From positions 992,001 to 1,056,000 of the forward strand of contig NZ_CP042912.1 of NCBI RefSeq assembly GCF_008087665.1: a stretch of 64,000 bases of DNA, read 5' to 3'. Of the stretch, positions 10,206 to 63,577 are shown piece by piece (position 1 is the first letter of the stretch; every line of letters starts with the position of its first letter). Made by a program: the position numbers and the translations under genes. The DNA comes from Mariniblastus fucicola. GTDB lineage: Bacteria; Planctomycetota; Planctomycetia; Pirellulales; Pirellulaceae. Below the pieces are notes generated by a model. That model had not been told where the DNA came from, did not search any database, and saw only the letters and a list, made by a program, of their open reading frames with translations.

Positions 10206-10529
10206 TTACTCTGCCGCGGCGGCGTCAGCTTCCTTTGGCGGAAGAGCTCGCTTGCGAATGTCCGTTTCCAATTGGCCGAAAACTTCTTCATGCCGACGAA
10301 CAGAAACATGCAGAGCGTGAAGTAATCGTTTGGCAGTGTAAAAGTTCATCACGACTCGTTGCTGAACATCGACCGTCGAATCTGCGTTGTTGACGGGTTG
10401 CGTGTTCATGCCAAAATCGACAATCAGCTCTTCCGCAGAACCGGTAACGCGGCAAAAGTTCGCGTAGCACGAAACCGCATTCGAATCGTCGACTTTTGTG
10501 GGTTGAGGTTGTTTTTGCTGTTCAGCCAT
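10206..10529 (-). CDS. DUF3467 family protein, 107 aa
   Basis: This small cytosolic protein matches the DUF3467 pattern: a YANFCRVTG block, then EELIVDFG, then QRVVMNFYTAKRLLHAL, with an acidic/alanine-rich tail. Members occur widely in bacteria including planctomycetes, and their role is not known. It is a single gene flanked by convergent and divergent neighbours. A TATAAT box lies on its own strand 48 bases before the ATG. Length and composition are normal for the family. Confidence 0.9.
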   Translation of the reverse strand: MAEQQKQPQPTKVDDSNAVSCYANFCRVTGSAEELIVDFGMNTQPVNNADSTVDVQQRVVMNFYTAKRLLHALHVSVRRHEEVFGQLETDIRKRALPPKEADAAAAE

Positions 10530-12282: not shown

Positions 12283-12523
12283 ATCAATTTCACGACCACG
12301 GAAACTCTATCCTTTCAGGTATCGGCGTTCATCACCGAAAACCCGAGTCATAACGAAATCAGGATTTCGCGACGCCAAGCCCCTATTTTTCCCAGTCTGC
12401 GCTTTCGTAAAAAAACATTCGATCGGCACAGATTTGTCAAACCTTAAGGTGGCCGCAAACCGAAAGATCTATGGAAGGACCGCCCCTGGGAGGTCCGCGC
12501 GTACCGTAGTCTGATTGAATCTC

Positions 12524-15211
12524 ATGCCCTCTGAAATTCAAAAATTTGCCAAAGAGCCTCTGGTTTGGGTCGGCGCTGCTCTGCTGTGCGTCCCACTGCT
12601 GGCATCCAGTTCGCTCAACCATCTCAGAGAACGGTTTACTGTTGATGCGTCTTCGGTTGCCCTGGCCGAGCCACTCGAGAAAGCTCCCGTGAACGAACCA
12701 GCACTGGGTTCGGTTGACGGTTCCAGTGCAAAAGATTGGCGACAGGACTCCGACACGCCCATCGTTGCCCTTCCACTGCCACCGTTGCCGACGAGCGAAA
12801 GTGAAGCCAGCCTTGCTGGGCCGTCGAATGTAGCAACCACGCGCACTGAATACTCTCCAATTTCATTGCCTGCAGCCGATCCAGCGACGAACTCACGGGA
12901 TCCGGGTTCGCTGCTGGAAGTCGCGGACCTCTATGAAGACAGCGACAGCGATTTTCCGGTTTCGGAATTCGGAAACTTCGAGGCTCAGGATTCCAGCCAG
13001 GCAACGCCCGCGAAGCAAAAGTCTGCGGCGAAAGATTCATCAACAGAAGAGTCGCCGGATGAGGAGTTCGACTTCCTCTTTGGCGATGATGGTCCGCAAG
13101 ACAATTCGGACAGCGACGCTGTAGAAAAAAGCCAGGAAAAACTTTCCAGCGAGAAAGCTCCACAGTCCAAGGCTGGATCTGAAAAGGCCCAACCGAAATC
13201 GAAGCCTCGCAAACTGCCGCTCAAAGTTCAGGAAGGGACTCCAAGTTGGTTGTTTCCGGAAGCTGACCGGAAGTCTGGTCGCGGCGACAAGCCGAACCGG
13301 AGTACTTGGCCGAGTGCAAATGATCGTTCAGATGCGAACGCTGATTCGGGCGCGAAATCTGAATCGGATTTGATGCCGATGGAAGAGCCGGATCTGTTCC
13401 AGCCGCCTGCTTTCGCGGATCAGCCGAATGAACAGGCTGAACCTGAATCGCTTCAATCCGTTTTCCCACAAGCCGCCGAGCCCACGTACTCGCCATTGCC
13501 AGCGACGCCGACGGAAACATTTGGCCAGCCCTTGCCTGCCCCGCAGGAAGCTCCCTCAAGCGACTACTATTTGCAAGTCGACAGCGGCCCAGATTGGTGG
13601 ACGCCGTACTGCCAACAGCCGTTCTGGCAATCCGTTCCGGCACACCAGACGGGTCTCGATGCGGTCGTGTTTACCGCGATGCAAAATTCACCCTACGTTA
13701 AATTGCTGAACACCGAACCGCAGATGGCGCAAACGGTTGTGAATGAAGCCGACGCTGTTTTCGATTGGTCAGCGTTTGTGGAAACATCGTGGCGGGACAT
13801 CGATCGACCAGTTGTTTCGTTGCTCGATACAGGAACCGCTGGCGGAAGATTCGTGCAGCAACAATTGCTCTTCGAATCCGGCGTTCAGAAGAACCTGCGA
13901 ACCGGAGGCCACCTTCGCGTCGGTCAGGCTTGGCAAACGACAGACAACAACAGTGCGTTTCTTTCGCCGCCAGACCAGGCCACAGCCCAAATTTTGTTGG
14001 ACTATCGCCAGCCGTTGCTGCGAGGTGCCGGTAAGCACGTTAACAACAGCCAGGTGCTGCTGGCTCGAATCGATGTCGATGCCTCGACCAGCAATTCACA
14101 GGCGTTGCTGCAACAGTTTTTGGTCGATGTCGTGTCGGAGTATTGGGAGTTGCACTATTCTCGCGGCGTCCTGATGCAAAAACTTCGTTCTGCGGAACGA
14201 GCTGAACAGCTGTTGAGTGAGCTTGCGAGCCTGCCGGATGCAGCGGAGCGAAAGCGAGACCTGGCTCGAATCCAGGCGATTGCGACGGCGAGACGAACTG
14301 AGCTGATTCGGGCCAAAAACGCAGTGGCGACTCATCAGGAAACATTGCTCAACCTGACTTATGGAACTGCAATGCCTGATCCGGCATCGCTTGAGGTGGT
14401 CCCGGTCGAATTGCCTGGCGTTTTTATGGTGCCCTACGATCAGAATTTCGTCACCGAGATGGCGGTTCAAAATCGCGCCGAAGTCAAAGTCGCGTTGGCC
14501 GCGATTCGTGCTTCAGCAGTTCGGCAGAATTTGGTGCTCAACGACCTCAAGCCCAAGCTTGATGCGATCGTGTCGACGTTTGTTTCCGGTTTGGACCAGG
14601 CCAAAGATGTTGGCGGAGCGGTGGGCAATGCGTTTGATTACGATCCGTCCTACGCGGTCGGGTTTAGCTTCGAAATGCCGATCGGTCGTAGAGCAGCGAA
14701 CGCACGACTGACTCGACAACAGTTGGATTATCAGCGACTGCAGTATCAGTTGGAACAGACGCTGGGCAACGTTCGCCTCGATGCCCGATTGGCTTATCGA
14801 AACGTGAGTAGTATTGCCAGCGAGATGGAGAATCATAAACTCGCCGTGCAACAGGCAGCTCAGGATTTGCATTTCGCGACCCAGCAGGCTGCTGCGGGTA
14901 TCGCCGATTCCGCCGGAAACACAAGCTTTCTGATCGACGACTTGCTGCGATCTCAGGAAGGCGTTGCGGCTGCGGAATCACGATTGCTTCGCAGTCAAAC
15001 GGATCTTTCGGTGGCGCTGGTTCAGTTGAAACGCGCGACAGGTCAGTTGCTTCAGACGGCTCCGATGCCTCAGGTCGCCGATCACGTTGTGCAAGAGGCA
15101 AGCTTCGTCCAGCAGGCAGGTTTTGATCAACAGGTGCCGGACACGCTGTGGTCCGTTCCCAACACGCAATCTGGTGCTCAGGCTGAATCGCAGAGCATCT
15201 GGGATCAGTAA
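12524..15211 (+). CDS. TolC-family protein with a long disordered N-terminal region, 895 aa
   Basis: The ATG at 12524 is preferred over the TTG three codons upstream. Residues 12-30 are hydrophobic and form a signal or membrane anchor. Residues about 30-365 are rich in Ser, Pro, Glu, Asp and Lys with repeats of low complexity, and are probably disordered. The TolC/OEP domain starts near 385 (TGLDAVVFTAMQNSPYVKLL) and includes RQPLLRGAG, YWELHYSRGVLMQKL and a second repeat up to about 840. The tail is Gln-rich. A leader of over 300 residues is unusual for TolC, where the mature core starts within about 30 residues. No lipobox is seen. No partner pump is adjacent. Confidence 0.88.
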   Translation: MPSEIQKFAKEPLVWVGAALLCVPLLASSSLNHLRERFTVDASSVALAEPLEKAPVNEPALGSVDGSSAKDWRQDSDTPIVALPLPPLPTSESEASLAGPSNVATTRTEYSPISLPAADPATNSRDPGSLLEVADLYEDSDSDFPVSEFGNFEAQDSSQATPAKQKSAAKDSSTEESPDEEFDFLFGDDGPQDNSDSDAVEKSQEKLSSEKAPQSKAGSEKAQPKSKPRKLPLKVQEGTPSWLFPEADRKSGRGDKPNRSTWPSANDRSDANADSGAKSESDLMPMEEPDLFQPPAFADQPNEQAEPESLQSVFPQAAEPTYSPLPATPTETFGQPLPAPQEAPSSDYYLQVDSGPDWWTPYCQQPFWQSVPAHQTGLDAVVFTAMQNSPYVKLLNTEPQMAQTVVNEADAVFDWSAFVETSWRDIDRPVVSLLDTGTAGGRFVQQQLLFESGVQKNLRTGGHLRVGQAWQTTDNNSAFLSPPDQATAQILLDYRQPLLRGAGKHVNNSQVLLARIDVDASTSNSQALLQQFLVDVVSEYWELHYSRGVLMQKLRSAERAEQLLSELASLPDAAERKRDLARIQAIATARRTELIRAKNAVATHQETLLNLTYGTAMPDPASLEVVPVELPGVFMVPYDQNFVTEMAVQNRAEVKVALAAIRASAVRQNLVLNDLKPKLDAIVSTFVSGLDQAKDVGGAVGNAFDYDPSYAVGFSFEMPIGRRAANARLTRQQLDYQRLQYQLEQTLGNVRLDARLAYRNVSSIASEMENHKLAVQQAAQDLHFATQQAAAGIADSAGNTSFLIDDLLRSQEGVAAAESRLLRSQTDLSVALVQLKRATGQLLQTAPMPQVADHVVQEASFVQQAGFDQQVPDTLWSVPNTQSGAQAESQSIWDQ

Positions 15212-24413: not shown

Positions 24414-26582
24414 CTAGTGAACCTGCATCGCAAGTTCAATCTTGTTTCGCAACCACTCGCAGGAAGCCAGATACAGATAGCTGCCCATCGATTGACGACC
24501 GGTCTTGAAGAATGCGAGTCCTCGCTGTCCGCTGTGAAGCGATTGGCTGATGTCGTCTTCGAGCGAAAGCTCTGCCGTAAATCGAGGCGACAGCAGTTCA
24601 AACGACGGACCGTCTTCGGATTCGCTGCCGCTGGCTTTGACGGGTAGCGGACCACCGGCGAAAGCACACAGGCTTGGATGTGTCGGTGTGGTCGTAGCTC
24701 GCGGATTGACTCGTGTGAATCGTGATCGAAACACGGGCATTCCCGAAATCATGACTCTCAGTTCCTGGCCTTGATTTTCCTTCACCGAATCGAGGTCCCG
24801 TTGATCGATCGAAACGATGACTTCCTTGGAACGGTGACGTGCGACATTGAGCATTGGGTCGCCCTGTTCGACGAATTGACCCTGCATGTTGTGCAGCTTT
24901 CTTTGGAACACGAACCCGTCGAACGGAGCACGGATTTCAAGCGATTGGGCCATTTTTGTTTTTTCAGCCAGTTGCTTTCTCAGTCCCGCCAAATGTTCTT
25001 CCTCCACCCTTGCCAAACCAAGTTCGTCGGCCTGCTGGTGGATTCGAATCTGAATACAGGACTCATCGACATCGCAAGCCAACGCTGTGACTTCATCAAG
25101 CAGTTCCTGATTGCGAAGCCGAACCAGCAAGTCACCCTGTTTCACCTGGCTGCCTGACTCAACGAACACCTCGTCAATGAAGCCAGGTGAATCCGCACGA
25201 AGAATTGTCTCGTTGGCGAATTGTACGACGGCCGGCGCGGACTTTGTGGCTGGCGCTCCCAGCACAAAGAACAGTAAACCCGCGATCGCCGCGATCGTGC
25301 AACCGCTGATGGCCAGTCGTTTCGGCGAAACTGGGTGTTTGGCTTTGTTGCCGATGGTTTGTTGGTATTGCTGATACAGCGGCATCCCGATCCACATCGC
25401 TGCTCCAATCGCAGCCAGAAATACGCCAAAGTTTGGCAGCAGAACGCTGGCTCCGATCGTCAAACTGATTGAAATCAACAGCTTCCAGAAGAAAGCCATC
25501 GAGCCATAAATCGAGCATCGCCAAAACTCGCCTCGTGGAATCACGTTCGGTGTAGGCGGCGTTCCGAAAATGACGCTCTTGAGACGATCGCCAAACCAGC
25601 GGGTACCTTTCGGGTACAGGTTCGCCACGCCGAGCAAATCGGACAGGATGAAATATCCGTCGAACCGCATCAGAGGATTTGCGTTGAACAGAATCGTAGT
25701 CACGCTCGACATGATGAAAAGCTGAAACGCTGTATCCGCCACGATCCCTTCGGTTTGGCTCCACACGATCACGGAAATGAACGAGATGAATAGCTCAACA
25801 TACATACCGGCCGCGGCGACGACGATGCGATGCCAACGACTGGAAAAACGCCACATCGAGGTCACGTTGACGTAGGCCATTGGAGTGAACAACAGCATCA
25901 GGACGCCGGCTTCAGGAACTTCGCCACCGTATTTTCGACAGGCGATTCCGTGAGCCGCTTCGTGGACGATTTTCAGGACCAGCCAAAACGCTAACAGCCA
26001 TGCCCAACCGTATCCGGAAAGGATGCCAGTCGAAGCGCCGCCCATCGCGTCCCAGTGAGCCCAAATGGTTTTCAGACCGATTGCGGTGACAAGGCACCAA
26101 ACGACAAAAAACGGTTTCAAAAACGCAAGTCTTGCGACCGGAAAGATCGCGTCGAGTGCTTTTGTGGGATTGAACAGTTTGACTTTAAAGGAAACGGGAT
26201 TCAGTTTCCCGATCAGCCCGGCTTTTGCGATAGACTGAGCCTGTGCATTGATTCGTTTGCTGCTGTCCATCGCATCGCTGTAGGCGAGGTTCGACTGGAT
26301 CAGCCACTGACAGACCTGAACCGCGAACGATTCGCCGATGCTGTCGTCACCGATATCTGCTGCCAGTTCTCCCATCGTTCGACTGCCATCGATTGCGGAA
26401 ATCAAAGAGAACTCACGCGTTCCAATTTGAAAGAACTTGTTGCGAACCGGATCTTCGACAATGACAAAACTTTTGCCTTGTTGAGTCCGGGTTTCGAAAC
26501 GGAGTTCTTTTCGAAGTGTCAGGACGGCGCCGAGCCATTGTGCGTTCGGATCACCCATCGATTGCATTGCAGCAGCATTCAT
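24414..26582 (-). CDS. PqqD-like/site-2 protease/HlyD fusion protein, 722 aa
   Basis: The ATG at 26582 lies 7 bases after the stop of the upstream gene. Residues about 20-105 resemble a PqqD-type peptide-binding domain (VIVEDPVRNKFFQIGTREF, then WLIQSNLA). Residues 150-460 are a polytopic membrane domain of the M50 site-2 protease type: HEAAH at 207-211 and NPLMRFDGY at 302-310, whose aspartate (308) is the third zinc ligand. All catalytic residues are present. Residues about 470-700 form a HlyD/membrane-fusion adaptor with split lipoyl halves (DSPGFIDEVFVESGSQVKQGDLLVRL, then IRAPFDGFV) and a short coiled hairpin. The fusion suggests that peptides are bound, perhaps cleaved in the membrane, and passed to a periplasmic conduit. 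This role is inference. Confidence 0.9.
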   Translation of the reverse strand: MNAAAMQSMGDPNAQWLGAVLTLRKELRFETRTQQGKSFVIVEDPVRNKFFQIGTREFSLISAIDGSRTMGELAADIGDDSIGESFAVQVCQWLIQSNLAYSDAMDSSKRINAQAQSIAKAGLIGKLNPVSFKVKLFNPTKALDAIFPVARLAFLKPFFVVWCLVTAIGLKTIWAHWDAMGGASTGILSGYGWAWLLAFWLVLKIVHEAAHGIACRKYGGEVPEAGVLMLLFTPMAYVNVTSMWRFSSRWHRIVVAAAGMYVELFISFISVIVWSQTEGIVADTAFQLFIMSSVTTILFNANPLMRFDGYFILSDLLGVANLYPKGTRWFGDRLKSVIFGTPPTPNVIPRGEFWRCSIYGSMAFFWKLLISISLTIGASVLLPNFGVFLAAIGAAMWIGMPLYQQYQQTIGNKAKHPVSPKRLAISGCTIAAIAGLLFFVLGAPATKSAPAVVQFANETILRADSPGFIDEVFVESGSQVKQGDLLVRLRNQELLDEVTALACDVDESCIQIRIHQQADELGLARVEEEHLAGLRKQLAEKTKMAQSLEIRAPFDGFVFQRKLHNMQGQFVEQGDPMLNVARHRSKEVIVSIDQRDLDSVKENQGQELRVMISGMPVFRSRFTRVNPRATTTPTHPSLCAFAGGPLPVKASGSESEDGPSFELLSPRFTAELSLEDDISQSLHSGQRGLAFFKTGRQSMGSYLYLASCEWLRNKIELAMQVH

Positions 26583-26589
26583 GATGACC

Positions 26590-28506
26590 CTACCAAATCG
26601 TCCAACAGCGAACGGATTCCCATGCGTTGTGGAATAGATTCCAACCGATTGGACGCCACGACGTTTTAATCTTGGCACTTCCCTTCATGCCTGGGCGAAT
26701 AACCGACTCGTCGTCGACAAGCTTCACGTCGGCAACAAACACGGATTCGTCATTGAGCATTTCGGCGCTCGGATTGATCGTGTTGACTTCGCCGTAAAAC
26801 GTTCGGTATGGAAAAGCATTCAGCTTGATCGCGACACTGTTGGTGCCACTGACGTACTGAATTTCCGATTCCGGGATTGCGACTTCGGCCAGCATGTCGT
26901 CCAGCGGAGCAACCTCGAACAATGTCTGCCCGATTTCCATCGTCGCACCCTGGGCTTTATCCAAATCTCCGCTGATCACGATGCCGTCGTAAGGGCTGCG
27001 GATTTCGAGTCGCGAAAGCTGATCGTTGAGTGACTTGATTCGGGTTTCCAGTTTTCGCATTTCGCTGCGTGCGATCTGGGATTGAGCAACTTCGCCCTGA
27101 GCCAGTGCAGACGAATGGCGACGTCGGGCGGCTTGATGTTCTGCTTCGACTCCCGTTAGCTCCAGTTGCAACTGTCGGCCATCCATATAGGCCAACACCT
27201 GATCTTTGGAAACGACTTCTCCGGGCCGAACGACGGATCGCTCCAGCGGGCCTGTATACGGAGCCGACACGAATCGTCGGGTGACCGGTTGGATTTCGCA
27301 ATCGCAAGCCACGCGGTACGGAATCGGAATGCACATCAGTAGCGCCAGTGCCGCTGCAGCTTTCCAGCCAAACCGAAACCAGTTTTTGGACGGAATTCGC
27401 TTGATACGTTCGGCCACCAGTTCGCTTCCTTTCAGGTTGGCGCGTCGTACGACATCCAGATGAGCGCCGTTGATCGCGGCGAACTGTTGTAGCTGAGTCA
27501 GTTGTAGTTCTGAGAACGAGTCTTCGTTGCTGGCGACCAGAATCGACCCTGTCGCATTGCCTTCGTGGTCCTGCATCGGCACGCTGACGCATGAAGCGAA
27601 ACGATTGGCTTTGCAATACGCTTCCAGAACCAGCGTTTGAACCGCGTTGGCGTTGGAGACGTTGGCTATATTGGAGGCGTCGGTAGTGCCGTTCGAGTTG
27701 GGAGAAAACACGATCGGTTCCGCGGCGCCGATGCCGGTGCTGCCTGCGGACAGGATGACGCGTGATGATTCGCTGTGAGGATCAAATTGCTCGACTTCGG
27801 AGATCGCGAGCAGCCTCGATCGCTCCGGCGTCTTGCCGTCACAACAAACGACCTGGCTCACGCCAAGCAATCGACGCAAGTGATTAACGAGGTAGTTTGC
27901 GGCTTCGCGCTTCGACGTCGAACGGTCCAGCATGCCGCACAGAGAAAGTGCATCACCAACAAATTTGGCCTGTTTCTGGCTGCGACCAAGCTCGCTTTGG
28001 CGTATCCATTGCTCGATCGTCTGCGAACCGATTTTCATCATCCATTGTTGATGCCGGGTCGTGCCTGAGGTGTGCACAAAGCAACCTGTGAAGACCATGT
28101 CACAGCGTTCCGGTGTCAAGCCGACGGACGACGCGACGATGGAGTGATTTTCACTGATCTGGACCGTGCCCAGGATTCCTGTCTCAATCGTCGTGCTGAT
28201 CAGATGTGGTAACTTTTCACCAGCCACCTCTGCGACGGACGATGTGTTCTCATCAGTCAGCGGATGCGTACGTAGTTCGCCACTTTGTGGTTCGCGTTGT
28301 GAAATCCAGAGAGCCAGACATTCAGTTTCCCGGCACACGACTTCCGCGACACCGCGAATGATGTCGGTTAGCTGCCCTGATTTGGCAACCAGTTCTCGAA
28401 GCTCCAGGCCAATAGGGTTGGTTTCGATCTGGATCTCGAACTCGCGATCCTGCGCAACCGTCGGAGCGGTGGCTGGAGTTGGCGAAGTTTGGATGGACTC
28501 GGACAT
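26590..28506 (-). CDS. GAF-domain/HlyD membrane-fusion protein, 638 aa
   Basis: The cytosolic N-terminal part (1-370) has one or two GAF-like regions. The second, about 190-355, ends CVSVPMQDHEGNATGSILVASN and SELQLTQLQQFAAINGAHLD, typical of GAF folds that bind small ligands. A single membrane helix (about 376-395) follows, then a HlyD adaptor (400-630): the lipoyl half TGPLERSVVRPGEVVSKDQVLAYM, a coiled-coil hairpin, IRSPYDGIVISGD, and a beta-barrel. Adaptors normally lack cytosolic sensory domains, so export may respond to a cytosolic signal. It sits between the 277-aa adaptor gene (102-base gap) and the protease fusion gene (7 bases), surely in one operon. Confidence 0.9.
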   Translation of the reverse strand: MSESIQTSPTPATAPTVAQDREFEIQIETNPIGLELRELVAKSGQLTDIIRGVAEVVCRETECLALWISQREPQSGELRTHPLTDENTSSVAEVAGEKLPHLISTTIETGILGTVQISENHSIVASSVGLTPERCDMVFTGCFVHTSGTTRHQQWMMKIGSQTIEQWIRQSELGRSQKQAKFVGDALSLCGMLDRSTSKREAANYLVNHLRRLLGVSQVVCCDGKTPERSRLLAISEVEQFDPHSESSRVILSAGSTGIGAAEPIVFSPNSNGTTDASNIANVSNANAVQTLVLEAYCKANRFASCVSVPMQDHEGNATGSILVASNEDSFSELQLTQLQQFAAINGAHLDVVRRANLKGSELVAERIKRIPSKNWFRFGWKAAAALALLMCIPIPYRVACDCEIQPVTRRFVSAPYTGPLERSVVRPGEVVSKDQVLAYMDGRQLQLELTGVEAEHQAARRRHSSALAQGEVAQSQIARSEMRKLETRIKSLNDQLSRLEIRSPYDGIVISGDLDKAQGATMEIGQTLFEVAPLDDMLAEVAIPESEIQYVSGTNSVAIKLNAFPYRTFYGEVNTINPSAEMLNDESVFVADVKLVDDESVIRPGMKGSAKIKTSWRPIGWNLFHNAWESVRCWTIW

Positions 28507-28608
28507 GGTTGCCGACAGTTCGTTGAGGGAGCAAAATGTTGGGGATGGCGAAGGATTCGCCGACGATCACTCGTTGATCGCCGCTATCGGAGAAACGTTT
28601 TTGGGTTC

Positions 28609-29442
28609 CTAGATGTTCAGCGTGCAGATTTCTCCGGCTCGGAAGATACGGCCGCGGTTCTCGAACACCAACTTGACTTCTACCGTTTGGCTTTGAGCAT
28701 CGGTGCTTACGCTGACCGAGTGTACGGTTGCGACAACTGATTTTCCGCTTTCAAACTTCAGCTCAAATTCTTTGCCAACGCGAAATTCGTTCGCCTGGGA
28801 AACTGGAATGTTGAACGTCGACAGGAGACGATCCACCTGGATGATCGTGATAACTTCTGGACGAAGTGGTGAAAGGTATTCGCCTTCGCGGCGGTGAACA
28901 GTTGAGACGATGCCGCCCATTGGAGCCGTGATTGAGCGACGTGAGAACTGGATTTCGGCACGTTGTTTTTCCATCGCACGGATCGCAGATTCTTCGCGAG
29001 CCGCGTTGTATTTGGCTTCCGCGATTGACAGCTCCATTTCGCTGCGGATCAGTTCGCTGTCGCTGGCGTGGCCGTTGGCTTGCATTGATCGCAACCGGTC
29101 GCTGATCGTGCGTCGCTTTTCCAGTGTTTTTCTGGCCGCGTCCAACTGGCTGGTTGCGTTCGCCATCTCGGTTGCGATTTCCAGTTGAACTTGCTGTACA
29201 CGATCGTCAAGTCGAGCGATGACGTCACCTTTCTCAACGTCAAAACCTTCTTCGACTTTCAGTTCGGCAATCGCACCGGCTTCGTCGCTGGAAAGATCAA
29301 TGCTGCGATACGGTTCTGTGAAACCTTCGATCTGTCCGTGCGAAACGGCAGCAAATGTGAAGAAAGTCAGGCAGATGCCGATCGTCAGAATGATTAGTTG
29401 CTGAAGCGTTTTCGGTGATTGTTGAAACTGGTTGGTGAACAT
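28609..29442 (-). CDS. Periplasmic HlyD/RND-type adaptor, 277 aa
   Basis: A signal peptide ends near SHGQ (residue 36). The mature protein is a short membrane-fusion adaptor: the lipoyl half DEAGAIAELKVEEGFDVEKGDVIARLDD, a coiled-coil hairpin of about 80 residues, the second half ITAPMGGIVSTVHRREGEYL, then a beta-barrel ending with RIFRAGEICTLNI. It lacks the membrane-proximal domain of full RND adaptors, consistent with work alongside the two larger adaptors. It is the first gene of the minus-strand operon and is divergent from the pseudouridine synthase gene. The 171-base gap between them holds a large hairpin. Confidence 0.9.
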   Translation of the reverse strand: MFTNQFQQSPKTLQQLIILTIGICLTFFTFAAVSHGQIEGFTEPYRSIDLSSDEAGAIAELKVEEGFDVEKGDVIARLDDRVQQVQLEIATEMANATSQLDAARKTLEKRRTISDRLRSMQANGHASDSELIRSEMELSIAEAKYNAAREESAIRAMEKQRAEIQFSRRSITAPMGGIVSTVHRREGEYLSPLRPEVITIIQVDRLLSTFNIPVSQANEFRVGKEFELKFESGKSVVATVHSVSVSTDAQSQTVEVKLVFENRGRIFRAGEICTLNI

Positions 29443-29613: not shown

Positions 29614-30294
29614 ATGACTGCTCTTCCACCTCCCGAAATTCTCTATGAACAACGCGGCATTGTCATTTTCAACAAGCCTCCGGGGCTTTTGACGCAAGCC
29701 CCGCCTGGGATCGATAGCCTGGAGTTGAGAGCGAGGCAATTTCTGACGAAGCGTGACGAAGCGCCGTCAAAAATCTATCTGACTCCCGTTCACCGTTTGG
29801 ATCGACCAGTATCGGGAATTGTCGTGTTCGCAAGAAATGTCCGTGCCGCAAAGCGTGTTTCAGCTCAATTTCAGAATCGATCGGTGACCAAAAAGTACCT
29901 GGCTCGCGTCGCTGGCTGCATCGATCCCGATGAAGAAATGCTGGAGGACTTCATGCGAAAGGTGCCTGATGAAGCCCGATCTGAAATCGTGCCTGAAGGC
30001 AGCGAAGGCGCGAAGAGGGCGGTGCTGAAATTCAGCGTCAAGGAACGAAGCGAGCATTGGACCTTGGTGGAGATCGAATTGCTTACTGGACGGACGCACC
30101 AGATTCGTTTGCAGTTCGCCAACCGTGGAAACGCAATTCTTGGTGACGCTTTGTATGGATCGGATTTTGAGTTCGGCGAACAGACTGTCGATTTGCGTCA
30201 GCGGCAAATTGCGCTGCACGCCTGGCAGATTGAATTCGATCACCCGATCGATGACGAGCGAGTTGAGCTTGAGGTGATGCCCGAATGGAAGTAG
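29614..30294 (+). CDS. RluA-family 23S rRNA/tRNA pseudouridine synthase, 226 aa
   Basis: The enzyme converts uridine to pseudouridine in RNA. The catalytic block HRLDRPVSGIVVFA is at 60-73, with the nucleophilic aspartate at 63. Other RluA-family motifs are FNKPPGLL (19-26), KKYLARV, LLTGRTHQIRLQFA and LGDALYG. It lacks an S4 RNA-binding domain, so it resembles the short RluA/TruC-type members; the target base cannot be named. The gene sits alone on the plus strand inside the minus-strand export locus. Its stop codon lies within a dispersed repeat copy. A TACAAT box ends seven bases before the ATG and no ribosome binding site is visible, so the mRNA may be leaderless. Confidence 0.92.
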   Translation: MTALPPPEILYEQRGIVIFNKPPGLLTQAPPGIDSLELRARQFLTKRDEAPSKIYLTPVHRLDRPVSGIVVFARNVRAAKRVSAQFQNRSVTKKYLARVAGCIDPDEEMLEDFMRKVPDEARSEIVPEGSEGAKRAVLKFSVKERSEHWTLVEIELLTGRTHQIRLQFANRGNAILGDALYGSDFEFGEQTVDLRQRQIALHAWQIEFDHPIDDERVELEVMPEWK

Positions 30295-30369: not shown

Positions 30370-31875
30370 CTATTGAAAGTTTGAAATCAGGCCACGGATT
30401 TCAACTTCATACTGCCAGCGTTGCTGAAGTTTCTGCAGGTAGCCGAGCTTGGTTTTCGCGTAGAGTTGCTGAGCCAACAAAAGCTCCAGGTACGGCGTTT
30501 CGCCCTGGCGATAGCCCTCGTTGGCAAGCTCCATCGCTTCAGCAGACTTTGGCAACAGTTCCCGGTCGAGAGTTTCCAGCTGTATGTTTGCGTCGACGTA
30601 GCTTGACCAAGCCTGCGTCAGACGGTCGCGAAGCTCGATGACTTTCTGGTCTGCTGCATGAACCGAAGTCTGGATGTTCTGTCGAGCCTGCGAAATGGCT
30701 CCCTGATTCCGGTTGAATTTTGGAATCGGCATTCCGATCTGAAAACCTCCAACCACTTCGTCGGTCGTAAAGTCGTATTGCAAATTGGTTTGCCACGTCA
30801 AATTCGGAATCGGGACAGCTCGTTGTTTCGCCAATTCACGCCGCGCCTGTTCGATGCTGGCAAAGGCCGCAGAGAGCTCTGGATGGCTGGTCAGCATTTG
30901 ATCAAATACGACCTCGAAATCACTCATTGGCGGAGCGTTTCGAACGTCGCCGGCAAGTGACTCGAAACGAACGGCAGACTCGCCAAGCAGCGCTGCGATT
31001 CGACGCAGCGATGCAGTACGCTGATTCTCCGCTTGGCTAACCATCATCTTCGCGTTCTGGTACTCGACTTGCGATCGCAACACGGGTGCTTTCGCGATCT
31101 CCTGGGCCGCGAAAAGTTTCTCGGACGTTTCGACCGATCGGAGCAGCACGTCTGCCAGTTCTTTCGTTTGTCGTACTGTTTCCTGAGCCAACAGCACGTT
31201 GTAGTATCGCTGGCGTAAATCAATCAACAGACGCTGTCGGGTCGCATTGACCTGGTTTTGAGCGACCTCTTGTTCTGCGCAAACCACAGATTGAGCAAGT
31301 GCCAGCTTGCCACCGCGGACCACCTGTTGGCTGTAGAAGACTCCGTATCGCCCCGCGCCGTCATCGGCGTTGATATCGTCTCCGATCATCCCAGCGGTCG
31401 GGTTGGGCGGAAGCGTTGCCTGCAGTTGCTTTCCCGACAACGCTGCCAATTGAGATTGAGCTTTGAGAATTTCCGGATTCGTGGAAAGCAGAATCTGCTC
31501 CAGTTCGGCCAATGTGATCGGCGAATGGCTTTCGCTCGCCAACTCGACCGCTGATGTAGCCGGAGTCGCGATGAACTCGCTCGTTTCAACGAAAGAATCA
31601 AGGTTCTCGTCGATGGAAAGCGAAATCAAACCCTCTGAAGAATCGTCGATGTCCGACTGAAACGCGACCTGCCGAGAGTCAGCTTTTTTAGTAGTCGCGA
31701 TTTTGGATTTGGGTGCCTGGCTTGAAACCGTTTCCGGCGCAAACGAAACCATTCTGGGAGCCAAGCCGGTGTTAGCCGTCGTGTGGCAACCCACAGAGCA
31801 CAAGAAGGTCAGTCCAGCCAGAGCGCTGAGACAGGCATGTGATGTTGCCAGTCGTTGAGGTTTTCTGATTGGCAT
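30370..31875 (-). CDS. TolC-family outer-membrane lipoprotein of the export locus, 501 aa
   Basis: The signal peptide ends in LCSVGC with the lipidated cysteine at 30. An acidic linker (about 31-110) precedes the TolC core, which starts at ITLAELEQILLSTNPEILKAQSQL and has the paired helical repeats, GVFYSQQVVRGGKLALAQ, and a second repeat beginning near DFEVVFDQMLTSHPELSAAFASIEQARRELAKQRA. Length and layout are close to CusC/TolC-type channels. It probably forms the outer-membrane duct for the adaptors encoded at 24.4-29.4 kb, although a plus-strand gene separates it from them. A hairpin lies just before its start codon. Confidence 0.9.
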   Translation of the reverse strand: MPIRKPQRLATSHACLSALAGLTFLCSVGCHTTANTGLAPRMVSFAPETVSSQAPKSKIATTKKADSRQVAFQSDIDDSSEGLISLSIDENLDSFVETSEFIATPATSAVELASESHSPITLAELEQILLSTNPEILKAQSQLAALSGKQLQATLPPNPTAGMIGDDINADDGAGRYGVFYSQQVVRGGKLALAQSVVCAEQEVAQNQVNATRQRLLIDLRQRYYNVLLAQETVRQTKELADVLLRSVETSEKLFAAQEIAKAPVLRSQVEYQNAKMMVSQAENQRTASLRRIAALLGESAVRFESLAGDVRNAPPMSDFEVVFDQMLTSHPELSAAFASIEQARRELAKQRAVPIPNLTWQTNLQYDFTTDEVVGGFQIGMPIPKFNRNQGAISQARQNIQTSVHAADQKVIELRDRLTQAWSSYVDANIQLETLDRELLPKSAEAMELANEGYRQGETPYLELLLAQQLYAKTKLGYLQKLQQRWQYEVEIRGLISNFQ

Positions 31876-59504: not shown

Positions 59505-59632
59505 AGATCGCGTGGTTGTACCGGTCCGTTAGCGATAGTTGCTGCATTTACATTTCCGCAATGGCGTTGGCTGGTGCCGCAGGCGTTCTACAATGGTGGT
59601 CCCATCCCCATTGACTGTCTGTGGACAACGCC

Positions 59633-62600
59633 ATGCGCAAACGCCGCCTTTCGAGCAATCTCTCCCGCTCAGGTAAACTCAGTTACGCAACTTTGGAATC
59701 CCGGCAATTGCTTGCCGGAGTTTCGCACGCGATCAGTTCCGGGCCGTGGCATGCGGCGACGACCTGGGACAACGGCGTTCCCGATACGGCAACTCGCGCG
59801 GTCATTGATTCCGGAGTCACCGTCAACCTTGCTGGCGTTGATCATGTTGCCGAAGAGCTTGTCATCCAGGGTAACCTCGTCGTCGACGAAGGGGCTACAG
59901 CGAAGACGCTGACGACTCGCTGGATTCACGTCAACAGTGGAGGTGTTTTCCAAATCGGCACCGAAGCCGATCGCTACAATACGAATGACTTTGTGATCAC
60001 GTTGACGGGCGAAGACCCAACCGACTCGTTCGATATCGAAGGCGTCGCCGATCCCATCACCGACAACGATGCCTTCTTGATGGCCGCTGGCGGAGGGAGG
60101 TTGCAGTTCTTCGGTGAAGACAAGCTTTCGTTTACGAAACTGAAATCCACGGCAAACGTCGGCGACAATCAAATCGTTGTCGAAAAGGAAATTGATCGGG
60201 ACTTCGACGGAGACATCGATGCTGCCGACGGAGAAGTCAACTGGACGGTCGGCGACCAGATCGTCGTTGCGAGTTCCACGGGCGAGTACGCGGATGAGGA
60301 AGTCCGTACGATTTCGAACATCGTATGTCTGACCAACGGCGATGTGGTTATCACGCTCGATCAGGCGCTCAACCATCGGCATTACGGAGCGATTGAAACG
60401 TACAGCAACGATTCGCGGTCCTGGGACATCGATATGCGGGCCGAAGTCGCGTTGCTTTCGCGAAACGTTCGTATCCAGGGACTTGCTTCGCAGGATACGG
60501 ACAACTTTTTCGGTGACCGAGCTCGATACGAAGCAGGAAGCGGTGACGGCTTCGGAGCCCATACGATGATCATGGGGTCTGCAGGGCAGATTACCGTCGA
60601 CAACGTTCAGCTCGATCGGATGGGACAGACTTCGCGACTGGGCCGCTATCCGATTCACTGGCATCTGGCTGGCGATCGAAGCGGTGACGTGCTGAGAAAT
60701 GCGAGCATCACCAACTCCAACAATCGAGGCGTTACGATCCACGGGACGCACAACCTTCACATCGAAGGCGTGGTGCTTCACGACATCCACGGCCACGGCT
60801 TCTTTATGGAAGACGCCGTCGAAACGGGCAATGTCTTTCAGTCAAATATCACGTTCGGGATTCATAAAGTCGGGCGGACCGGAAACGCGGTTGATCTTGA
60901 TGACCCTTTTATTGTCGACACACACGATCACGTCGGCCAAAACGCAGAACGATTTCTCAGCTCTGCCGGCTATTGGATGACCAGCCCGGACAATACTTGG
61001 GTGGGTAACGTTTCAGCCGGATCAGAAGGGACCGGGTTCTGGTTTGTGTTTCCCAGACATGCAGTAGGAGAATCTGCCAATGATCCGCAGTACGACAATG
61101 TCGTGCCCAACGAAGTCGACCTTGGGCAATTCGACTATAACTCGTCGCACTCTTCTCCGATCGGGTTGAACTTCGATCGTGGTACCGACATCGAAGGCCC
61201 GATTGGCGATACGCTGAAAGACAATTTTGATGGGTTGGAGCATCGTCCGGACAACGAACCACAGATCAATTTTTATACGGCCTACAAACACGATACGGGA
61301 ATCTACCACCGCGGGCGCATCGGGAACTTTCACGAGAACCGGCTTGCGGACGTGGGGCGAGGCACCTTCATTACATTCACTCAGCGAATCACAGATACGC
61401 TTTACGTCGGCCACAGCCAGGGCAACAGTGATTCTTCTGAGGGGGTCGCGGGCCATACGTTTTACGACGGAGCCAACACGCTCGATGGCACGCACTTCGC
61501 GGGATTCAATGGCTCCAACGCCAACATGTTTATCGCTCATGGCGCCGCCCAGCGATTGACTCACTTTGTGATGAGCAACACCACATTCGAAGACGACGGA
61601 TCAGCCGACAATGTCCGGTTTGTGAGTCCTTCCGGGGGCACAAACTACAGTCCGGTTGGCAAGACAATGCCGTCTGTAATCTACGATGCGGACGGATCGT
61701 TCACCGGCCATGTTGGCGGCGGAGCGGGTTCAACCATCGTTCCGAACCATCCATTTTTCTACGACGCTGATGACTTTCAGCCGACGGGTTGGGAGGCGCG
61801 AGTCTCCGACGACCTGTATGCGATGTTCCGGATGAGGGCGCCGGATTCCGGCAATCCTGTTTTTCGTGTGACCAGTCCTGGCGGAGAAAGTGGCACGGCT
61901 CAACCGGGCACGGGGCAATTCAGCGGCACCAACACGCTGATGAAGCTTGATGGAGGCGGCGACTATGTGCTGGACTTCCCGGATGGACCGTCCGCCGTTG
62001 CCAGCGGATTCGATGTCACGTTCTACGCAAAAGTCGGTCCCTCGGCCGGATCGACAATCGTTCGGTTCAAGGACGTGGCCAGTTCGTTGTTGCCTCAGGA
62101 TATTCCTCGCGTCAATGGAGGTCTGACGAATCTTCGCGCTGCGACGCAGACTTCGTTTGAAGTTGTCGATGGCGATGTGTGGATGAAGCTGTTCAGTTCG
62201 GCAGACAAAATCTATTTCGAACCCGAAGCAAACTCCGCTCCGGTCGCTCTCGATGATTCCATTGTCACCAACGAAGACGTCGCCGTAAGCATTTCTGTGG
62301 TCGACAACGATAGTGATTCCGACGGAGACACAATCTACGTCAACGCCTCCCCGCTTGTGGTCGCAGACTATGTTGACGATTTCCAGTCTCCGACTGCGCC
62401 GGCCAACTGGCAGTACCTGTGGAATCAGAACAGCCAACTGGGTGACGAATCAGGCTACGTCGACATGAGCTGGTCCAACTGGCGATACCATCCTGTCGAC
62501 ATAACAAACTTTCCTTACCTCGGGCCAACGTTTGCTCATCCCGGCGATGGAACCAGCGAAGGAATCGGTGTTGAGCGATTTGCGATCGCCGCGTTTACGA

Positions 62601-63577
62601 TCCCCGTCGATGGTAACTATTCAATCGCCAACAGTTCGATCACTCCCAACGAAAACACCGTCAACGGCGTCAACGTTGCGGCTCACATTTCCGGCCAGTC
62701 AGTCATGTCATTGGGCCAGTTCGATGAATCCGACGTTGGGTCCAGTTTCGATGCTGAACTTGGCTTTGCCAACGCTGGCGATGTGATTTACGTGGCTCTC
62801 GGGGCCAACGCTTCCAAAGGAGCAGACGGAACGTCCTGGGATTTTTCGATCATAAGAGATGGCTCGCCGGAAAACGGTCAGCTGACTGTCAACGCCGACG
62901 GCACGATTACGTATACTCCCAATCCGGACTTTCATGGCACCGATTCGTTTGCCTATGAAGCCAGTGACGGCAGGGGTGGCTTCGACATTGCGACCGTGAC
63001 TGTCACGGTGAACAGCGTTCCCGATATTGCCGCACCGGTGGTCGTCGGAAATGCAACAGCATCGCGATCGATCGTGAGTCAGCTGGTGGTTGGCTTTGAC
63101 GAAATCGTTACGCTACAGCCCGGTGCGTTTACCGTAACCAACGTCGATTTGATGCAGCAAGCAACCGTCAGTGCGGCGATCGACAACTCTTCAGGCAGCT
63201 CCGTCGTGACGCTTACCTTTTCCGGTGCCGTGACCGAGTCGGCGACTGGTTCATTGGTCGACGGGAACTACCAGTTGGCCATTGATGGCTCGAAAGTCGA
63301 AGGTGCCAGTGGTCAGTTCTATGATGGCGATGGTGATGGCATCGCCGGCGGAATGTATCTGTTCGGTAATGATCCGGGACACAATTTTTTCCGGCTGTAC
63401 GGAGACGTGACTGGTGATCGAACGGTTAGCGTTTTTGATTTGCTGCAGTTTCGCCAGACGTACCTGACTTCCGTTGGCGACCCGGCATTCAACGAGCAGT
63501 TCGATGTGACGAACGATGGCTTGGTCAATGTTTTTGATTTGCTCAGGTTTCGGCAAAACTATCGCAAAGACGTTTGA
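59633..63577 (+). CDS. Secreted G8/beta-helix protein related to CEMIP-type hyaluronidases, with dockerin-like tail, 1314 aa
   Basis: The ATG at 59633 is preferred; a GTG four codons upstream is also possible. The start LESRQLLAG is the planctomycete LExRxLLA element of large secreted proteins. Residues about 30-180 form a G8 domain (TTWDNGVPDTATRAVIDSGV, then LVIQGNLVVD). Residues about 190-540 are a right-handed beta-helix whose segment RYPIHWH (338-344) and GVTIHGTHNLHIEGVVLHD, GHGFFMEDAVE closely match the catalytic region of animal CEMIP/TMEM2. A linker and a cadherin-like module follow, split by an inserted domain. The last 60 residues hold two EF-hand-type dockerin-like repeats (GDVTGDRTVSVFDLLQFRQ, DVTNDGLVNVFDLLRFRQ). 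Polysaccharide cleavage is probable; the substrate is not known. Confidence 0.88.
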   Translation: MRKRRLSSNLSRSGKLSYATLESRQLLAGVSHAISSGPWHAATTWDNGVPDTATRAVIDSGVTVNLAGVDHVAEELVIQGNLVVDEGATAKTLTTRWIHVNSGGVFQIGTEADRYNTNDFVITLTGEDPTDSFDIEGVADPITDNDAFLMAAGGGRLQFFGEDKLSFTKLKSTANVGDNQIVVEKEIDRDFDGDIDAADGEVNWTVGDQIVVASSTGEYADEEVRTISNIVCLTNGDVVITLDQALNHRHYGAIETYSNDSRSWDIDMRAEVALLSRNVRIQGLASQDTDNFFGDRARYEAGSGDGFGAHTMIMGSAGQITVDNVQLDRMGQTSRLGRYPIHWHLAGDRSGDVLRNASITNSNNRGVTIHGTHNLHIEGVVLHDIHGHGFFMEDAVETGNVFQSNITFGIHKVGRTGNAVDLDDPFIVDTHDHVGQNAERFLSSAGYWMTSPDNTWVGNVSAGSEGTGFWFVFPRHAVGESANDPQYDNVVPNEVDLGQFDYNSSHSSPIGLNFDRGTDIEGPIGDTLKDNFDGLEHRPDNEPQINFYTAYKHDTGIYHRGRIGNFHENRLADVGRGTFITFTQRITDTLYVGHSQGNSDSSEGVAGHTFYDGANTLDGTHFAGFNGSNANMFIAHGAAQRLTHFVMSNTTFEDDGSADNVRFVSPSGGTNYSPVGKTMPSVIYDADGSFTGHVGGGAGSTIVPNHPFFYDADDFQPTGWEARVSDDLYAMFRMRAPDSGNPVFRVTSPGGESGTAQPGTGQFSGTNTLMKLDGGGDYVLDFPDGPSAVASGFDVTFYAKVGPSAGSTIVRFKDVASSLLPQDIPRVNGGLTNLRAATQTSFEVVDGDVWMKLFSSADKIYFEPEANSAPVALDDSIVTNEDVAVSISVVDNDSDSDGDTIYVNASPLVVADYVDDFQSPTAPANWQYLWNQNSQLGDESGYVDMSWSNWRYHPVDITNFPYLGPTFAHPGDGTSEGIGVERFAIAAFTIPVDGNYSIANSSITPNENTVNGVNVAAHISGQSVMSLGQFDESDVGSSFDAELGFANAGDVIYVALGANASKGADGTSWDFSIIRDGSPENGQLTVNADGTITYTPNPDFHGTDSFAYEASDGRGGFDIATVTVTVNSVPDIAAPVVVGNATASRSIVSQLVVGFDEIVTLQPGAFTVTNVDLMQQATVSAAIDNSSGSSVVTLTFSGAVTESATGSLVDGNYQLAIDGSKVEGASGQFYDGDGDGIAGGMYLFGNDPGHNFFRLYGDVTGDRTVSVFDLLQFRQTYLTSVGDPAFNEQFDVTNDGLVNVFDLLRFRQNYRKDV

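Follow-up and report, generated by a model that had tools for sequence, protein, structure and literature searches.

The 64,000-nucleotide stretch of the Mariniblastus fucicola genome analysed here (the window; contig NZ_CP042912.1, positions 992,001 to 1,056,000) encodes a 722-residue protein (24414..26582, minus strand) in which a PqqD/RRE-like domain, a site-2 protease and a HlyD-type adaptor are fused, as delineated from its open reading frame (ORF), family searches and a structural model. The fusion probably (we put the probability at about 0.6) processes leaders at the inner membrane for a SecA-associated system related to type I secretion, the cargo of which would be giant surface proteins with the N-terminal motif LEPR-XLL. 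Genes for the fusion and for LEPR-XLL proteins are linked both across genomes and physically, as neighbours.

What is new is this link between the cassettes and the LEPR-XLL giants; the cassette itself has been described in part before. In the available portions of the study by Kamneva, Poudel and Ward (2015; PMC4452313), loci with M50+HlyD, GAF+HlyD and HlyD genes, sometimes accompanied by OEP and a secondary SecA_DEAD, are reported without an ABC transporter from hosts that include planctomycetes; SecA_DEAD is suggested as the source of ATPase activity and the M50 protein as a possible pore, the broader role of the loci is called completely unknown and no substrate is named. The study also attributes the four-gene locus to Methylobacterium extorquens AM1. 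The term PqqD is absent from its main text. The window has the three joint genes of that module at 24414–29442, with GAF and M50 Pfam scores below their cut-offs, and lacks the in-locus secondary SecA_DEAD gene, which 37 of 80 related loci possess. The fusion belongs to this known, hitherto unexplained secretion-like module, for which the LEPR-XLL link suggests a likely cargo. A literature search, outside which most subscription journals lay, found no paper linking LEPR-XLL with this exporter in its title or the opening of its abstract, and only PMC4452313 to combine SecA_DEAD and HlyD; two papers use the term LEPR-XLL, one of them (PMC10868602) in a passage without an export route. The link joins two separately described, unexplained things, the secretion-like loci with a secondary SecA and the N-terminal LEPR-XLL motif of giant proteins. 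If it is true, the cargo of a widespread secretion system can be predicted from a motif of 25 residues, and the leader-recognition principle of ribosomally synthesized and post-translationally modified peptides (RiPPs), which operates through RRE domains, extends to protein secretion.

Domain architecture of the fusion protein

The fusion gene runs from 26582 to 24414 from an ATG start, with a longer GTG start at 26678 also open; the plus strand over the same interval holds no open frame, with stops throughout. The original prediction, made from the letters of the DNA, had described one protein composed of a PqqD-like domain, an intramembrane protease and a HlyD adaptor. Its coordinates and both of its protease motifs proved right, and the strand, which it had not given, is minus. 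These motifs, HEAAH (residues 207–211; 25950..25964, minus strand) and NPLMRFDGY (residues 302–310; 25653..25679, minus strand), represent the HExxH zinc motif and the distal NP....D motif of M50 site-2 proteases. An alignment of the window protein with 67 of the 73 long fusion ORFs from 80 loci found in a genome scan (the other six were left out without inspection) showed H207, E208 and D308, the last of which we take to be the third zinc ligand, to be invariant in all 68 rows, and H211 to be present in 67. The fusion is therefore very likely an active protease.

The metalloprotease core, of M50 or YydH-MpaP type, spans residues 140–440 (25263..26165, minus strand), as defined by the match to NF041824 and the helical region of the model. 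NF041824, the daptide RRE-protease, is the top NCBIfam match of the fusion (E 4.7e-46, residues 23–398), scoring 157.6 bits against an equivalog cut-off of 300; YydH/LiaK (NF058609) matches residues 195–319 (E 6e-8) with bits far under its cut-off, and Peptidase_M50 covers residues 201–383 at 24.3 bits, below the Pfam cut-off of 27.2. The C-terminal HlyD adaptor, previously recognized from split lipoyl halves, was borne out by Pfam, the model and Foldseek: HlyD_D23 (PF16576; residues 460–628, E 4e-14) and HlyD_3 (PF13437; residues 550–629, E 3e-12) both exceed their cut-offs, and residues 446–693 (24504..25247, minus strand) form a barrel-sandwich with a helical hairpin.

The AlphaFold2 model, computed on the 68-row alignment, has a mean predicted local distance difference test score (pLDDT) of 89.0 and a predicted template modelling score of 0.74. 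It shows strands at residues 20–54, three helices up to residue 96 and a short strand at 100–102, followed by a helical membrane region up to approximately residue 440, the barrel-sandwich with its short hairpin (residues 492–546) and a C-terminal helix (residues 699–721). A Foldseek search with the whole model matched the HlyD end to MacA, MexA and AcrA (E ~1e-13 to 1e-12), with HlyD-type adaptors in the best 50 matches listed, and the N-terminal domain was therefore folded and searched alone.

This domain (residues 20–102; 26277..26525, minus strand), delineated by fold, Foldseek and profile, is a PqqD/RRE-like winged helix proposed to bind leaders. Residues 10–112, folded alone with a pLDDT of 88.4, found among their best PDB matches the leader-bound lasso-peptide B1 proteins 6jx3, 5v1u and 5v1v, and also matched the sactipeptide enzymes 5why and 5wgg; the strands and three helices of a winged helix are present, with modest Foldseek E-values. 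A profile made from 58 of the 68 alignment rows and searched against 177,635 PDB sequences returned PqqD (3g2b, E 0.0056), TfuB1 (6jx3, E 0.035) and PqqC/D (5sxy, E 0.08) at the top. PF05402 (PqqD) matches 14 of these 58 rows, with a best E of 3.6e-9, and the N-terminus of the window protein matches no Pfam family, PF05402 included. The earlier assignment of a PqqD-like N-terminus thus agrees with the predicted structure and with the relatives; the case that would have spoken against it, an N-terminal region without such a winged-helix fold, did not arise in the structure prediction. The reading as PqqD-like domain, protease and HlyD adaptor is correct, and its PqqD part is not in itself new, some plasmid relatives being annotated as PqqD family protein. 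By analogy with the leader-bound relatives 6jx3 and 5v1u, the domain would bind a leader peptide.

The architecture is more than a chance juxtaposition, as the genome, one contig of 6.57 Mb, encodes five further paralogs, six with the window copy, and at least 578 stretches in the genome scan encode confirmed relatives. The nearest of these, by scan and tree, are from Pirellulaceae metagenome-assembled genomes. On Escherichia, Citrobacter and Hafnia plasmids a relative was matched only over query residues 127–595, and perhaps lacks the PqqD part.

Linkage of fusion cassettes to LEPR-XLL genes

Upstream of the fusion gene and on the same strand lie genes for a 638-residue GAF-HlyD protein (26590..28506; PF16576 E 8e-17, GAF E 0.002 and below cut-off), a stand-alone HlyD adaptor of 277 residues (28609..29442; RND_mfp 125.6 bits, cut-off 94.9) and a TolC-type outer membrane protein of 501 residues (30370..31875; OEP E 4e-35). 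An opposite-strand gene at 29614–30294, presumably an RluA-type pseudouridine synthase, separates the stand-alone HlyD from TolC. An uncultured relative (L089) has the same cassette in synteny, with identities of 84% for the fusion, 73% for GAF-HlyD, 83% for HlyD and 65% for TolC. Among the paralogs, two (L018 and L020) lie in full cassettes of the order TolC, SecA-like ATPase, HlyD, GAF-HlyD and fusion; in the 17 kb around each of the others, only GAF-HlyD adjoins the fusion in L019 and L021, and L017 has none of the cassette genes.

Across the 80 related loci, many of them on short contigs, GAF-HlyD was found in 74, HlyD in 53, a SecA-like gene in 37, TolC in 27, an ABC transporter in 6, DUF3467 in 5 and RND in none; restricted to the 38 loci that have 6 kb or more on each side, the counts were 35, 26, 17, 16, 3, 2 and 0, respectively. 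The RND profile was built from one Escherichia coli protein and the ABC profile from two. An export route free of ABC transporters, as first proposed, is consistent with these counts, and a separate ABC or RND pump is not a constant companion. The same proposal had a single polypeptide recognizing, cutting and handing over the peptide, and in this respect it is not supported: the fusion sits with TolC, HlyD and GAF-HlyD, and with a SecA-like ATPase at 37 of the 80 loci. The SecA-like ATPase is likely to be the engine.

Classical type I secretion systems (HlyB-HlyD-TolC; LapB/LssB) share the HlyD adaptor and the TolC exit with this cassette and also handle giant adhesin-like cargo. They differ from it in using an ABC transporter, of which no match was found among the window ORFs, and in having C-terminal cargo signals, whereas the signal proposed here is N-terminal.

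Both SecA-containing cassettes of the genome divergently adjoin giant open frames, of 7,682 and 7,791 residues, whose starts are separated from those of the TolC genes by 431 and 283 bp (measured from ORF ends). Their N-termini, LFESLEERVLFDGAPDA and IVEQLEDRVLFDGVPDA, bear the LEPR-XLL-like motif LExRVLFDG, and they were assigned by this motif and by a leader profile made in this analysis (E 4e-8 and 1.5e-8). In both, DUF4347 comes next, followed by DUF11-type and related repeats in one and by SdrD_B and GEVED repeats in the other. Three other ORFs of the genome pass the cut-off of NF012209 (LEPR-8K or LEPR-XLL), the curated model for the motif that the proposed clients bear, with 24.2, 23.9 and 19.5 bits.

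The same arrangement recurs on alphaproteobacterial plasmids, where an annotated LEPR-XLL domain-containing protein adjoins the fusion cassette in Pseudosulfitobacter, Thalassospira and Pontibrevibacter (three of eight regions). Other giant genes, identified by size with their N-termini unread, occupy this place in Alisedimentitalea, Methylosinus and Azospirillum (another three), and a 3,966-residue open frame does so in the unannotated Sinorhizobium region; the Rhizobium johnstonii region shows no giant gene in its stretch, which is truncated by the start of the record.

The 80 loci hold 553 non-cassette genes whose 5' end is visible, and 22 of these have the pattern LExR[VILMKQATS][LMVIF][LFYM] within their first 130 residues; of 2006 interior 130-residue windows, 6 contain it. 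The match at L107, in what we take to be the gene for ribosomal protein S3, was dropped as chance, leaving 21 leaders, one per locus; the match at L074, on a short ORF of 215 residues, was retained. The 21 leaders align without gaps to a consensus of approximately L..E.LE.R[VI]L[FYL][DS][AG].P, in which the invariant L, E and R are the letters demanded by the search pattern. Their N-terminal stretches, taken to 30 residues past the motif start, have a median best 12-residue Kyte–Doolittle mean of 1.34 and a maximum of 2.05. For comparison, the first 60 residues of the 71 HlyD and TolC genes at these loci have a median of 2.5, with 17 of the genes at or below 2.05. Being so weakly hydrophobic, most of the leaders are unlikely to be classical signal peptides. 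The leader-bearing partners that the original prediction had called for were found, as LEPR-XLL proteins; its expectation of small leader genes was not borne out, no widely recurrent gene of this kind having emerged near the cassettes.

Genome-wide counts were made in 276 genomes of the class of Pseudomaricurvus (G018), taken as Gammaproteobacteria in the wide sense, with thresholds of E 0.01 for LEPR-8K and E 1e-20 for the fusion. LEPR-8K was found in 28, the fusion in 42 and both in 24. The Fisher tests excluded the window's genome (G000) and two genomes picked for holding the fusion (G018 and G022), and one variant also set aside six genomes in which the fusion match was no more than partial or weak. 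Without G018 and G022, 22 genomes have both, 18 the fusion only, 4 LEPR-8K only and 230 neither (p 8e-18), so that the fusion is present in 22 of 26 genomes with LEPR-8K and in 18 of 248 without it. Of the 24 genomes that hold both, 12 have the two genes within 12 kb of each other, at distances of 28 to 5,090 bp, and a thirteenth has them 13 kb apart on the same contig; this count used fusion rows down to E 2e-81.

The association holds in the planctomycete's own phylum. Among 243 genomes, G000 having been removed, NF012209 gave 32 with both, 42 with the fusion only, 2 with LEPR only and 167 with neither (p 3e-17); the leader profile, built from scan loci, gave 34, 40, 1 and 168 (p 1e-19), placing the fusion in 34 of 35 leader-positive and 40 of 208 leader-negative genomes. 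Of the 38 genomes in which the fusion and, with one model or the other, a leader were detected, at least 8 have both within 12 kb, a hand count of same-contig pairs picked by eye that is a lower bound. At most four fusion candidates were scored per genome, so numbers of fusions per genome are likewise lower bounds. Among 30 fusion genomes chosen by hand from the 80 loci to spread over many phyla, 23 have LEPR-8K above cut-off, and open frames of up to ~18,000 residues bear the motif, some of them of 9,000 to 18,000 residues. A loose LEPR search matched 7 of 14 control genomes, 1 of them above cut-off and none at E 0.01.

Proposed mechanism and alternative explanations

We infer the following course for leader binding, cleavage, translocation and client choice. 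The cytoplasmic PqqD/RRE domain would bind the LEPR-XLL leader, as RRE domains bind RiPP leader peptides, and the site-2-protease core (H207, E208, H211 and D308) would cut the leader at or in the membrane. A secondary SecA-like ATPase would push the chain; many relatives encode it within the locus, whereas for the window cassette it would come from elsewhere in the genome. The fused HlyD part, GAF-HlyD, the stand-alone HlyD and TolC would carry the chain across the periplasm and the outer membrane. The genome contains four secondary SecA-like ORFs besides SecA itself, which lies in a 1,279-residue frame, and an unlinked one could serve the window cassette. Two of the secondary ORFs lie outside fusion cassettes (L153:7727-9604, plus strand; L154:8044-9897, minus strand), the first just downstream of a gene for an 817-residue protein with an N-terminal LEARNLLA.

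The wider claim stands at about even odds: that planctomycetes, verrucomicrobia, proteobacteria, Nitrospirota and others possess a distinct secretion pathway, in which a SecA-like ATPase acts, with no ABC transporter involved, on a dedicated inner-membrane RRE-protease-HlyD gate that recognizes and removes the conserved, non-hydrophobic LEPR-XLL leader, some of the largest bacterial proteins are exported, and leader subtypes (LFDG versus LYDASP) match exporter clades within one genome.

Several observations weigh against the assignment of the fusion to leader processing for LEPR-XLL export. No window ORF matches SecA, the SecA-like genes sitting in the L018 and L020 cassettes, and the window cassette has no SecA gene or LEPR giant next to it; the sole motif gene of the window is weak and lies ~28 kb from TolC. 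With NF012209, which has a cut-off of 17 bits, the giants beside the SecA cassettes reach 15.8 and 14.3. LEPR-8K is not above cut-off in 7 of the 30 hand-chosen fusion genomes, and no leader was detected in 18 of the 42 gammaproteobacterial genomes with the fusion or in 40 to 42 of the 74 in the own phylum; the Fisher tests, moreover, treat genomes as independent and ignore shared ancestry. In the Foldseek search with residues 10–112, the methyltransferase 8hkr occupies ranks 1 and 2 and the demethylase NO66 (4e4h) rank 8, and the first twelve matches have E-values of 0.008–0.17, none of them at or below 0.001.

The closest competitor, clearly less probable, keeps LEPR-XLL proteins as the cargo and has the SecA-like ATPase or GAF-HlyD read the motif, the protease serving, for example, to clear stuck chains or to regulate the pump. 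GAF-HlyD is indeed the most constant partner, and the SecA-like protein, where present, is presumably the natural chain-handling ATPase. Set against this division of labour are the RRE itself, a fold that binds leaders and has solved complexes with them among the structures closest to it, the 43 of 80 loci that show no SecA gene (some on short contigs), and the SecA-less loci that flank LEPR genes nonetheless (L062, L063, L069, L079 and L090).

It is improbable that the association is indirect, with cassette and LEPR genes both marking large-genome, surface-living bacteria. Both are found in planctomycetes and verrucomicrobia, as that explanation would have it; the physical proximity of the genes in half of the gammaproteobacterial genomes with both argues otherwise, as does the control with the classical type I secretion ATPase LssB (TIGR03375). 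This ATPase is above cut-off in 50 of the 276 gammaproteobacterial genomes and shows no association with LEPR (6 of 26 genomes with it, 42 of 248 without; p 0.29). The permissive outcome of this LssB search, 272 of 276 at E 1e-50, was disregarded.

Still less credible is a role for the fusion in a RiPP-type system, maturing small modified peptides and exporting them in the manner of daptides or epipeptides. Its appeal lies in the family matches to the daptide protease and to YydH/LiaK. According to the available part of PMC10036551, MpaP, a fusion of RRE and site-2 protease, removes daptide leaders, and daptide precursors have a short N-terminal leader motif, ELExMEAP, the resemblance of which to E.LExR.L is suggestive only. 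Like the fusion, MpaP joins an N-terminal RRE to an intramembrane metalloprotease; its model (379 positions) covers the RRE and protease of the fusion and not the HlyD part, and NF058609, of the same M50 type, is shorter (246 positions) and covers the protease alone. About 4 kb beyond the Methylosinus fusion, on the other strand, there is a gene for a class-III aminotransferase, an enzyme type listed for daptide clusters, and no other product name in the annotated plasmid regions suggests a RiPP-modifying enzyme. MpaP substrates are short RiPP precursors with modifying enzymes, whereas among 1034 small intergenic ORFs near 68 fusion cassettes the largest cluster spans four loci, two of which (L076 and L109) have DUF3467 matches. 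The RiPP explanation was rejected on the NF041824 score, little more than half of its cut-off, and on this lack of recurrent small precursor genes. Least probable of all is a small-molecule or metal efflux system with a regulatory M50 part, which the likeness of the HlyD and TolC parts to efflux adaptors and channels might suggest and which the RND and ABC counts and the linkage to giant LEPR genes oppose.

Predicted clients and neighbouring genes

The leader profile, built without sequences of the window's genome, found there six ORFs with E of at most 4e-4, of 2,839 to 7,791 residues, and six weaker ones. In five of the six best, DUF4347 follows the leader; two of the six are the giants of the SecA cassettes, and four adjoin no fusion gene. 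In the fusion tree, the window copy forms a clade, with a support of 100, together with six cassettes whose available stretches, some of them short, contain no SecA gene. All three leaders visible in the window clade read LYDASP, two of the three exporters being close kin, and all five visible in the clade of the two SecA cassettes read LFD[GA]; these are too few rows for a firm claim that leader subtype follows exporter clade. A 7,279-residue open frame with the N-terminal sequence LEARVLYDASPL (G000:C1:2899103), located away from any fusion gene, is predicted, on the basis of these few rows, to be the likeliest client for the window cassette.

The protein of 1318 residues encoded within the window at 59621..63577 (plus strand), with G8, CEMIP beta-helix, cadherin/Ig and dockerin domains and an N-terminal LESRQLLAG, is a weak candidate client by motif and domains; it is absent from the matches of the two leader models in the genome at E up to 1. 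The fusion gene of L019 adjoins a gene for a 1,959-residue protein with LEPRQLLTAD in its N-terminal region (L019:756-6635, plus strand). A second motif form, LExRxLLA/S, may mark clients of other fusion paralogs.

A second TolC-like protein, of 898 residues, is encoded at 12515..15211 (plus strand). It shares 31-32% identity with the L018 and L020 TolC proteins (E ~1e-79) and matches those of L062 and L069 at E ~1e-56; it is thus closer kin of the TolC proteins of the SecA cassettes than of the TolC adjacent to the window fusion, and is a possible second outlet. A small DUF3467-like protein (E 1e-12) is encoded at 10206..10529 (minus strand), and genes of this family are found repeatedly beside the fusion cassettes of alphaproteobacteria, Nitrospirota and Thiotrichales.

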